From contig NZ_JAGQCU010000022.1 in assembly GCF_024346355.1 (NCBI RefSeq), positions 1 through 39,507 of the forward strand: a DNA stretch of 39,507 nucleotides, read 5' to 3'. Below, one piece after another: positions 36,274 to 39,507 of this stretch. This DNA comes from Cyanobium sp. ATX 6A2. GTDB taxonomy: Bacteria; Cyanobacteriota; Cyanobacteriia; PCC-6307; Cyanobiaceae. Below the pieces are notes generated by a model, which saw nothing but the letters and a program-made list of their open reading frames with translations, was not told the origin of the DNA and did not search any database. The translations under genes were made by a program, and so were the position numbers. The first letter of the stretch is position 1. Each line of letters opens with the position of its first letter.

Positions 36274-37160
36274 CGGCCGACGCCGGCGGAGTCGCCCCCG
36301 CCGGCGCCAGTCCCCACTGGCTCAGCACACTCCTGTATGTCCCCCTGCTGCTGGCTGCGGGCTGGCTGCTGGCGAGGCCGCTGACGCTGCTGGCTCCGCC
36401 GTTGCGCCCTGATCAGGTGGATCTGGCCGGTCTGGTGGTGACCCTGCTGCTTCTCCTGGCCACCCTGCCATGGCGAATCCGACGCTGCTGGGGCCACCGC
36501 CATCCCTGGCGGCAGCTGGGCCTGGCGGTGCCCAGCACCCTGGCCATCAGCAGTGGGCTGCGGGGGCTGGCGGTCGCCGTCCTGCTGCTGCTGTTGCTCA
36601 CGGCTGGCCTGTTGCTCAGCGGCCAGGCCCGCTGGCTGGGGCCGGTGGATGGGGCCGTGGCCGCCAATGGGCTGGTGCTCGGCCTTGGCGTGGGGTTTGC
36701 CGAGGAGCTGCTGTTCCGCGGCTGGCTGTGGGGTGAGCTGCAGCTGGGGGGAGGCGGCCGCCGGGCCCTGCTGCTGCAGGCCCTGATCTTTGCGCTGGTG
36801 CACCCCTGGTTCCGGGCGCCGGGGCTGCTGGCGCTGGCGCTGCTGGGCGGGCTGGCCCTGCTGGGGCTGGCCCTGGCCAACGAACGGCGGTTGGGGGCGG
36901 GCTCCCTGTGGGGTGCCATCGGGCTGCACGGCGGCCTGGTGGGCGGCTGGTTCGTGGTTCAGCACGGGCTGGTGGCGATCGCCCCGCAGGCCCCAGGCTG
37001 GTGGGTGGGACCGGGCAGCGGGGATGTGAACCCGATCGGTGGGCTGAGCGGGTTGATCGCCCTGGCCGCTCTGGTGATCGCTCAGCGCACGGCCTTGGCC
37101 AGGGCCCGGCGCCCCTCAACCGGGGCGTGCAATGCCTCGTCGAGCGGAGCAAGGCCGTAG
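36270..37160 (+). CDS. CPBP-family intramembrane metalloprotease
   Basis: About 296 residues, very hydrophobic with 7-8 membrane segments (WLSTLLYVPLLLAAGWLLA; GLAVAVLLLLLLTAGLLL; LLALALLGGLALLGLALA). Motifs of the CPBP/Rce1 family are GFAEELLFRGWLWGEL, FALVHPWFR and IGLHGGLVGG, providing the catalytic Glu pair and His. Members process membrane or secreted peptides or act in stress; the substrate is unknown. The start is uncertain: TTG 36270 overlaps the clpS stop, and no in-frame ATG exists before the first helix. The last ~25 codons overlap the convergent radical SAM gene by 79 bp. Confidence 0.85.
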   Translation: MTADAGGVAPAGASPHWLSTLLYVPLLLAAGWLLARPLTLLAPPLRPDQVDLAGLVVTLLLLLATLPWRIRRCWGHRHPWRQLGLAVPSTLAISSGLRGLAVAVLLLLLLTAGLLLSGQARWLGPVDGAVAANGLVLGLGVGFAEELLFRGWLWGELQLGGGGRRALLLQALIFALVHPWFRAPGLLALALLGGLALLGLALANERRLGAGSLWGAIGLHGGLVGGWFVVQHGLVAIAPQAPGWWVGPGSGDVNPIGGLSGLIALAALVIAQRTALARARRPSTGACNASSSGARP

Positions 37161-38662
37161 TCGCGCTCCAGCAAATCCATCACGGTGCGGCCGAAGTCGT
37201 CGGCGTTGCGATCAAAGGCCTCCAGGCAGATGCGGCCGAAGGTGCTGCCCATGGGCTCTGGGTTCCAGAGGGTCTTGCGCGCCGCCCACGGCATCATGCT
37301 CATCGGGTTGTAGCCGGGCTTTATCAGGCCCTGCTCGAAGCCGTACTGCTCCAGGTGGGTGTGGGGCTGCAGGCCGATGAAGAAGATCGCCGGCTCCACC
37401 TTGTCGGCCCCGAAGATGCACTCCAGCTCCCGGTGGTAGGCCACGGTCTGGCGGATGGTCTCGGGCCGCTCGTCGATGACGTTGAACGAGTAGTTCACCG
37501 ACACGTGGTGGCGGAAGCCGGCCCGGGCCAGCAGCCGGCAGCTCTCCAGCACGGTGCGCAGGTTGTAGCCCATGCGCATCTTGCGCACGAGTTCCTGGGA
37601 TCCCGAGGTGATGCCGATCTCGAAATACTCCATACCTGTGGCCACCATCAGCTCTGCGAGCTCGGCATCGAGGTTGTCGGCGCGGATGTAGGCGGCCCAG
37701 CGGATATCCCGCCAGCCCTCGGCCAGGATCGCCCGCAGCAGGGCCTTGGCGTCCTCGATGTAGCGGCGGGCCGGGATGAACTGGGCGTCGGTGAACCAGA
37801 AGCCGCGGACGCCACGCGCATACAGCTGGCGCATCTCGGCGATCACCTCCTCCACGGGGTTCACCCGCACCGCCTTGCCCTCCACCACGGTGTACACGCA
37901 ATAGCAGCAGTTGTGGGGACAGCCGCGCTTGGTCTGCACGCCCACGTAGAAGTCGCCGCCCTCGAGATACCACTCCAGCTGGGGCCACACACTGGAGATG
38001 TAGTCGTAGTCGCAGGCGGTTTTCTCCAGTCCCGCCGGCTGCTCGTGGATCAGCCCCTGGCGCGGCGCTGCACCGGCCACGAAGCAGCGTTCGCCGGCGA
38101 TCGACTGGCCGCGGATCAGCTTTTCCAGCAGCGGCTCCCCCTCCCCCACCGACACCACCGTGCCCCGAGGCAGCTTGCTGCCCAGCTGTTCGTAGAACAC
38201 GCTCACCGCGCCGCCGCCGATCACCGCCCGGGCATCGGGGTGGTGGCGGCGGGCCCGCTTCAGCCCCTGGCGCACCAACCGCAGGTTGCGACGGAGCTCC
38301 CCGTAGAAGGCCGACATCAGACCCAGGCCACCGAGAGCACCGCGCAGGCGCTTGAGCGGATTGCCGGCGTAGAACACCTCGAAGGAATGCTGCAGGGGGT
38401 TGCCGCTGCGGCCGTCCACCGGCGCATAGATCTGGATGTCGCGCCAGGAGAACACCAGCAGGGTGGGCCGGAAGGCATCCACGGTGTGGCGCAGCACACG
38501 GTGCACGTCGAGCACCGGCACGGCCGCCAGATCCAGGAGGCGCTGGGGCAGCTGGGGAAACTGCTTGTGCAGATGGTCGGCCAGATAGATCGGGCCGATC
38601 GGAAAGATTGGGTTGCAGGGAAGCCGCACCAGCAGCACCCGGTGGTCGCTCTCGGCGCTCAC
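37082..38662 (-). CDS. B12-binding-type radical SAM protein beside psbA
   Basis: 526 residues from GTG 38662 (reading SAESDHRVLLVRLPCNPIF). The frame is open to 38935, but that part overlaps the decayed cofG and is not protein-like. The N-terminal cobalamin-binding-like domain (FPIGPIYLADHLHKQF, LVFSWRDIQI, AVIGGGAVSVFY) is followed by the cluster motif KRGCPHNCCYCVYTVVEGK. A TIM barrel with GVRGFWFTDAQFIPARRYIE and IRADNLDAELAELM comes next, then MEYFEIGITSGSQELVRKMR. From memory, cyanobacterial proteins of this architecture are often named photosystem II high-light-acclimation radical SAM proteins, and the psbA position fits that; I cannot verify it here. The substrate is unknown. The 3' end overlaps the CPBP gene. 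Confidence 0.8.
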   Translation of the reverse strand: MSAESDHRVLLVRLPCNPIFPIGPIYLADHLHKQFPQLPQRLLDLAAVPVLDVHRVLRHTVDAFRPTLLVFSWRDIQIYAPVDGRSGNPLQHSFEVFYAGNPLKRLRGALGGLGLMSAFYGELRRNLRLVRQGLKRARRHHPDARAVIGGGAVSVFYEQLGSKLPRGTVVSVGEGEPLLEKLIRGQSIAGERCFVAGAAPRQGLIHEQPAGLEKTACDYDYISSVWPQLEWYLEGGDFYVGVQTKRGCPHNCCYCVYTVVEGKAVRVNPVEEVIAEMRQLYARGVRGFWFTDAQFIPARRYIEDAKALLRAILAEGWRDIRWAAYIRADNLDAELAELMVATGMEYFEIGITSGSQELVRKMRMGYNLRTVLESCRLLARAGFRHHVSVNYSFNVIDERPETIRQTVAYHRELECIFGADKVEPAIFFIGLQPHTHLEQYGFEQGLIKPGYNPMSMMPWAARKTLWNPEPMGSTFGRICLEAFDRNADDFGRTVMDLLERDYGLAPLDEALHAPVEGRRALAKAVR

Positions 38663-38696: not shown

Positions 38697-39316
38697 CTAA
38701 CCAGATGCCAGCAGCGCCTGGGCCATGGCCGCAGCCCGGCGGCGCAGCGGCAACGGCAGCCAGGACATCCAGCGTTCGTGGACACACAGGCGGGGCCGCA
38801 ACCCCCAACCCTGGCGAGCCAGCAGGTTGGTGAGCTGGCCTGGGGGGGGGGCTGGGGGTAGGCGGGATTGATCCCATCGCCCCTGCAGCAAGGCGATCCA
38901 TAGGAGGGCATCGCGCTGCTTGGCTGCGCTTTCACCCACCCCCAGCAGCAACCCCGTGGTGAACGGAATCCCCAGGCGTCCCGCCTGCTTCAGTTGCTGC
39001 AGGCGCACGGCCAGTTTTTTGCTCGGAGCGTGCCGATGCAGGGCGTCATCGGCCGGCCCCAGACCCTCCAGCATCAGCCCCCAGCGAGGGGTTGAGCCGA
39101 CCCAGGCAGGCCATTTCAGACAGCGACAGCAGCCCGGCATTGGTGTAGGCCAGGCGCCCGGCGGCCAGGGCCAGGGCACTGAGCTGCCGCAGGCGCACGA
39201 ACCACCGGGGCCGCCCCCTGGATCCCGTAGGCAGTTCGCCATCGCGCAGCGCGTCAGGCGTTGAAGCAGGCTCTGGCGGGCACCAGCGTGAAGCTGGGAC
39301 TCCAGGTGATGACGGC
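38697..39316 (-). pseudogene. cofG: decayed cofG (FO synthase subunit 1, radical SAM)
   Basis: On the minus strand four collinear blocks match CofG, which with CofH makes the deazaflavin FO. First, VITWSPSFTLVPARACFNA (39313-39257) is followed at once by TGA at 39254-39256, where the rest of the CxxxCxxC motif should be. Second, GELPTGSRGRPRWFVRLRQL and then LAYTNAGLLSLSEMACLGRL in another frame. Third, LMLEGLGPADDALHRHAPSK and IPFTTGLLLGVGES after a +1 shift at the C5 run 39078-39082. Fourth, LLARQGWGLRPRLCVHERWM, the C-terminal block, joined without the intervening ~50-80 residues. Thus the cluster core is deleted, one frame is broken and the C-terminal half is shortened. No functional enzyme is possible. 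It is divergent from psbA and 35 bp beyond the radical SAM start. Confidence 0.82.
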
Positions 39317-39343
39317 GGAACGGGCCCCGCCCCGCAACCCCCC

Positions 39344-39373
39344 TTCACAAACCCCGCAACGTTGTGTTACATT
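39344..39373 (+). promoter_or_regulatory. putative psbA promoter
   Basis: TTCACA (39344-39349) and TACATT (39368-39373) are spaced by 18 bp and lie about 98 bp before the psbA ATG, leaving a leader of roughly 90 bases. They resemble sigma-70 type elements (TTGACA / TATAAT, with 5/6 and 4/6 matches). The region between the decayed cofG and psbA is slightly AT-richer than its surroundings. Inferred from sequence only; no transcription start is known. Confidence 0.45.
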
Positions 39374-39470: not shown

Positions 39471-39507
39471 ATGACCACCACTCTCCAGCAGCGCTCCGGC
39501 GCCAACA
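39471..39507 (+). CDS. psbA: photosystem II D1 protein, N-terminal codons only
   Basis: The last 37 bases start at ATG 39471 and read MTTTLQQRSGAN, the invariant beginning of cyanobacterial D1. The gene continues outside the window. D1 carries the reaction-centre chlorophylls, the Mn cluster ligands and the QB site and turns over rapidly in light. The leader 39374-39470 contains no other frame of note. Identification rests on twelve residues and the cyanobacterial context. Confidence 0.85.
   Translation, partial: MTTTLQQRSGAN

Follow-up and report, generated by a model that had tools for sequence, protein, structure and literature searches.

A broken cofG gene beside psbA

The window, that is, the whole stretch of DNA analyzed here (39,507 nucleotides of Cyanobium sp. 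ATX 6A2, genome G000 in our set), holds near its end the remains of a cofG gene, flanked on one side by an intact radical-SAM gene and on the other by the start of psbA. The features are the following.

37082 to 38662, minus strand: intact radical-SAM gene that marks the cofG site (94 to 95% identity in the three closest named relatives)
38697 to 39366, minus strand: cofG relic (unitary pseudogene), whole extent (blastn and tblastn against the cofG genes of the genus; NF004884 and TIGR03550 matches)
38697 to 38885, minus strand: C-terminal block beyond a deletion of ~230 bp; its length also differs by 2 bases at a run of ten G near 38842 to 38851 (alignment with the relatives' genes L006, L007, L012, and L013)
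38865 to 39240, minus strand: middle CofG block, in which one extra base at 39078 to 39082 breaks the frame (81.5% DNA identity to L006; the frame differs on each side)
39254 to 39256, minus strand: in-frame stop where the second Cys of the cluster would stand, with a deletion of ~120 to 135 bp behind it (three-frame translation and alignment)
39255 to 39366, minus strand: N-terminal block, whose end lies within the radical-SAM motif past the first Cys (85.7% DNA identity to L006)
39472 to 39507, plus strand: start of psbA (D1), the other flank, at which the contig ends (read from the sequence; locus L011 shows the same order with a full psbA)

Eleven CofG sequences from the genus, of which 10 have a single full frame, served as tblastn queries and gave at most four collinear blocks on the minus strand, at ~39337 to 39260, 39270 to 39082, 39092 to 38874, and 38855 to 38748. 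These are the four blocks that a preliminary description had recognized next to psbA, and they lie in three frames rather than in the single uninterrupted one of CofG. That description had placed the relic at 38697 to 39316; its location was right, while its upstream end was set too short, as DNA of the closest relatives matched 39366 to 38697 at ~80 to 86% identity (blastn) and the relic thus runs ~50 bp further, to ~39366. The damage it had listed, namely, a stop replacing the iron-sulfur core, a frameshift in a C5 run, and a shortened C-terminal half, was found as described. The stop comes after the residues CFNA and, in an alignment with four relatives, stands in place of the second Cys with the rest of the motif deleted, so that the first Cys alone is left of the radical-SAM motif CX3CX2C. 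The ten-G run at 38842 to 38851 was noted to lie near the second deletion.

The 181-aa open reading frame in the relic matched the CofG model NF004884 with 76.1 bits (E 2.3e-21) and TIGR03550 with 59.1 bits (E 4e-16). Scores of the relic (54.1 to 76.1 bits) were far under the curated cut-offs of 209 for NF004884 and 213 for TIGR03550 and far over chance. A shift in dN/dS indicating decay was sought against four relatives and was not found; the relic gave values of 0.20 to 0.24, compared to 0.15 to 0.31 between intact pairs. Since the relic still resembles a constrained gene in this respect, the loss fits a recent event, with decay in progress.

The cofG site in related genomes

The radical-SAM neighbor stood beside cofG in all 11 loci of the genus (11/11), and a psbA start was recognized by its sequence pattern on the other flank in 6 of the 11 relatives' loci. 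Together, the collinear blocks and the shared radical-SAM neighbor show that the relic descends from cofG at its ancestral site. An intact cofG at the same site in relatives, which the preliminary description had proposed to look for, was present as one frame in 10 of the 12 other genus genomes. The draft genome G002 (78% complete) has a full-length cofG split over three frames (L015, G002:C99), without large deletions, and no cofG was detected in G008, a genome that is 77% complete. An intact second copy in the ATX 6A2 genome, named as what would overturn the idea of a loss, was looked for by a CofG profile search and not found. The only other match, at C1:164119 (33.9 bits), was considered as such a copy and rejected; it has a 30 to 39-bit counterpart in all 12 other genus genomes and was taken as another radical-SAM gene.

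Of the 80 named loci that carry the radical-SAM gene, 39 extend at least 1,100 bases upstream, with cofG in 13 and absent in 26 (a weak cofG-like match in L129, with 30% identity, was excluded from the 13). Several of the 13 cofG-bearing loci belong to differently named lineages, which indicates that the site is old and that the event in this genome was a loss. A phage collection, consulted for a phage origin of the site, gave no near match. It was also observed that a bin titled Bifidobacterium breve holds contigs with the picocyanobacterial radical-SAM gene (L121, CALPNT020000163.1, and L129, CALPNT020000097.1) and is thus mislabeled or mixed.

cofH is lost as well

The light-gathering pigment FO (8-HDF) is made jointly by the products of cofG and cofH, which are unlinked. 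The preliminary description had expected cofH to be lost or repurposed, and we found it lost: a relic (21 bits) lies at C23:~228218 to 228676, at a conserved site, with multiple deletions that removed most of the gene. Its flanks are the same two conserved genes that surround the intact cofH of relatives, a ClpS-like gene (assigned by eye) and a gene of ~510 codons. Core stretches and the last codons are all that remains of cofH, the cluster motif and the unbroken frame being gone, and a search for an intact cofH elsewhere in this genome returned nothing beyond this multiply deleted relic. Among the other genus members, cofH is present in 10 of 12, in one of them truncated by a contig end; it was not found in G002 and G008 (77 to 78% complete genomes). 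The three-frame cofG of G002, together with its lack of a detected cofH, may be an artifact or a second decaying copy.

Several deletions have thus broken both FO synthesis genes of this genome, each at its ancestral site, and the suggestion that loss of deazaflavin synthesis is in progress was supported by the two relics and by the dN/dS of the cofG relic. Compared with the known FO synthase parts CofG and CofH (TIGR03550 and TIGR03551), the relics are homologous over the remaining blocks and occupy the gene sites of relatives; unlike functional genes, neither copy has the cluster motif or a continuous frame. Synechococcus elongatus carries both CofG and CofH (PMC9178010).

Photolyase genes of the genus

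Two photolyase genes, PhrA and PhrB, are both retained in this genome. PhrA or pieces of it occur in 13 of 13 genus genomes, and a PhrB-type gene in 12 of 13, the copy of G005 being divergent. G000 PhrA matches SePhrA (1owl), a class I CPD photolyase of the 8-HDF type, over nearly its full length (566 bits) with the pocket residues kept; unlike S. elongatus, G000 can no longer make the antenna via the known route. SePhrB is described as an FeS-BCP 6-4 photolyase with an 8-HDF antenna (PMC9178010). The PhrB-type gene of G000 gave 229.6 bits to PF04244, and its antenna loop, located by spacing, reads R-R-R-C with a Lys after it, which matches four of its closest FO-making relatives; in contrast to SePhrB, it has no FO supply.

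Besides these, 11 of the 12 relatives carry an additional photolyase of type a or type b, G002 having PhrA pieces only, and neither type was found in G000. Here, type a is reduced to its first 17 codons (C43:61740 to 61790) with both flanks kept: the upstream gene is followed by the 17 codons and then by sequence from just beyond the gene end. Type a is a full, divergent photolyase-family protein (PF00875 plus PF03441), and the PDB entry nearest to it by sequence is SePhrA (185 bits). The type a gene has thus been deleted in G000, with PhrA and PhrB retained.

Type a is carried by 20 of 201 family genomes, of which 19 are among the 38 counted FO makers (Fisher p 3e-15, with relatedness ignored). 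All 20 type a copies read, from 20 genomes, have the lysine of an LKFG motif; the copy of G003 lay outside this reading. The sole carrier without detected FO genes was G097 (L276, G097:C284; 96% complete, in 380 contigs), in whose copy both the LKFG lysine and the arginine are conserved. This distribution suggests that type a needed FO. The type a gene of G005 (L290, G005:C1:1521653 to 1523504) falls into two frames and contains a stop despite the presence of cofG and cofH, from which it follows that FO makers can do without type a; in G005, loss of a client can precede loss of the supply. As a separate observation, G004, with an intact type a, has a short N-terminal fragment of type b (L071, G004:C121:1344 to 1412), and either type may take the place of the other.

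Lys248 of PhrA follows FO status across the family

Strong cofG matches were found in 36 of the 201 family genomes, strong cofH matches in 36, and both in 35. Mismatches between the two were fragmented genomes, G112 with cofH only and G151 with cofG plus part of cofH; in G165 just a fragment of cofH was found, and the cofG match of G058 begins at position 86. The 38 FO makers in the type a count include G112, G151, and G165. Among the matches listed, G000 alone has a partial cofG match in the ~50-bit range outside cofH loci. At least 11 changes of FO status are needed on the PhrA tree, and the shared cofG site argues for these having been losses.

PhrA was then compared in an alignment of 118 sequences, 33 from genomes with FO genes (FO+) and 85 from genomes without them (FO−), the FO− set containing incomplete genomes. 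The sequences came from 138 family genomes with PhrA: 21 were left out, and of the 117 read, all but G049 (dropped for a short frame) were used, which makes 116; G008 and G010 were added from the genus. The pocket was nearly fixed in FO makers and variable in FO-less genomes. Lys248 was lysine in 33/33 FO+ sequences and was replaced, by Arg, Ser, Ala, Asn, or Cys, in 81 of 83 FO− sequences from 23 genera, a count that excludes G000 and G008 (both included in the pair tests below). It was kept in G024, G187, and G008, which are FO− by our search.

G000 PhrA keeps F35, D38, I41, L42, R51, L55, D101, R107, and K248 and has the FO-maker state at all tested positions except Val36, which is Leu. The residues named as binding 8-HDF in SePhrA, Ile41, Arg51, and Leu55 (PMC9178010), are thus all present, as is Lys248. 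The curated cut-off of TIGR03556, the model for 8-HDF-type CPD photolyases, is 884.6 bits, which G000 PhrA (617 bits) does not reach; it is passed by 0 of 201 family genomes, FO makers included. According to the preliminary description, the photolyase would by now have a different antenna or go without one. No such switch is visible yet in G000, whose PhrA pocket is unchanged, while the pocket has changed elsewhere among the FO-less genomes of the family. As G000 keeps both Lys248 and Arg51, its loss of FO synthesis looks recent.

In four solved structures, the Lys248 column holds Lys in SePhrA and in the animal-like cryptochrome 6fn0 and Ala in 1dnp and 1iqr; we take the former two to bind 8-HDF and the latter two folate and FMN, and the abstract of a paper supports 8-HDF binding by the cryptochrome. 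Lys248 and Asp101 are presumed to contact 8-HDF, and Lys248 would accordingly be expected to touch FO. That SePhrA binds 8-HDF is supported by PMC9178010, in which Arg51 is called crucial for this binding.

Independent FO+/FO− pairs were drawn from a FastTree PhrA gene tree (not a species tree) built with the pocket columns removed. In 10 such pairs, Lys248 differed in the same direction in 7, in the opposite direction in none, and did not differ in 3 (median p 0.016 in a sign test). A scan of the 223 PhrA columns that are fixed in the 33 FO makers, before which Lys248 had already been singled out, placed Lys248 on top. The mean numbers of same-way pairs at other pocket positions were 2.7 for Arg51, which ranked second in the scan, 2.2 for Leu42, 1.5 for Phe35, and 1.1 for Asp101; at position 41, where FO makers have Ile or Leu, the mean was 3.4 (p 0.25). 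None of these listed positions besides Lys248 was significant in the pair test, in which fewer than six differing pairs cannot reach 0.05.

The family-wide link between Lys248 and FO is a correlation, and the pocket differences of FO− genomes could reflect lineage rather than FO. Several genera are dominated by FO− genomes, Lys248 was the sole one among the 223 fixed columns to reach a mean of at least 3 in 10 pairs, and the other single pocket positions had no significant link. Nevertheless, we regard an effect of lineage as unlikely, given that separate FO+/FO− contrasts yielded 7 same-way and 0 opposite pairs for Lys248 with all other 222 columns at 2.7 or less, and that the second-best column was the very Arg51 described as crucial (PMC9178010).

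Recent loss of FO synthesis as the probable explanation

We consider it highly probable that this genome has recently lost FO synthesis, with the window holding one piece of that loss, and that PhrA probably works on FAD alone. Breakage of cofG and cofH would have ended the FO supply, and type a, the presumed FO client, was deleted too. PhrA, as a class I CPD photolyase, would then most likely rely on FAD, its FO pocket being empty or opportunistically filled. The suggested order is loss of the supply first and change of the pocket later: other FO-less lineages of the family show a changed pocket, with Lys248 as the most consistent position and Arg51 after it. With the pocket of G000 unchanged, it is only by comparing lineages that the passage from a lost supply to an altered pocket becomes visible.

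Alternatively, neighboring cells might leak FO, making loss of synthesis cheap while PhrA still binds scavenged FO (a Black Queen case). The intact PhrA and PhrB pockets of G000 would agree with this, as would a report that FO readily diffuses through lipid membranes (PMC8498797). Recency of the loss accounts for G000 equally, however, and the replacement of Lys248 in 7 of 10 independent pairs implies that in most cases an outside supply does not keep the pocket intact; we judge scavenging to be a rather improbable account. Even less credible is that the 181-aa frame (38697 to 39242) encodes a new, shortened functional protein, which we think very improbable. It is a long open frame with dN/dS near 0.2 across three blocks, but intact genes give the same dN/dS, as fits recent loss. 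Moreover, the radical-SAM motif is absent, the frame shifts inside the homologous region so that the ORF is partly not CofG-like, and the partner gene cofH is lost too. Finally, sequencing or assembly error in genes that are really intact has a negligible chance of explaining the damage: indel errors typically occur at runs such as C5 and G10, the relic is close to a contig end, and the three-frame cofG of the draft G002, without large deletions, may be such an artifact, but deletions of ~120 to 135 and 230 bp in cofG, several large ones in cofH, and one of nearly the whole of type a are not homopolymer errors, and their presence at three loci, each on a different contig, in a genome with a completeness rating of 100% led us to reject this cause.

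Recent loss of FO synthesis, as the reading retained, makes G000 a timed natural experiment in which an antenna cofactor is no longer supplied and the pocket of the user enzyme is intact. A broader reading, for and against which we see about equal grounds, would make Lys248 a genetic readout of how much picocyanobacteria depend on FO: FO loss would release the pocket, Lys248 would be replaced, and many marine forms would run a class I photolyase without FO, contrary to assumption. Type a would, as part of the same joint reading, be an FO-dependent photolyase that disappears along with FO, and G000 would stand between supply loss and pocket change, possibly scavenging FO in the meantime. The Phr1 to Phr8 set of picocyanobacteria belongs to the same photolyase family, with Phr3 corresponding to PhrA by its description, and 8-HDF in Phr3 of a marine strain was assumed by analogy (PMC9426592). 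The replacement of Lys248 in many FO− genomes of the family argues against this assumption for such strains, RS9916 itself lying outside our comparison.

A literature search over titles and the beginnings of abstracts, with subscription papers mostly outside its reach, turned up no report of such a loss of FO synthesis or of a link to Lys248, and a full-text search returned no paper connecting photolyase, 8-HDF, and "Lys248" in that spelling. Lys248, followed by Arg51, may serve as a residue-level marker that predicts FO use by cyanobacterial photolyases from sequence, and G000 makes it testable which antenna, if any, serves the photolyases of FO-less picocyanobacteria. Within the genus, the PhrA of G008 (L050) has Arg51 changed to Gln with Lys248 retained; together with its lack of detected cofG and cofH, this may represent a separate FO loss.
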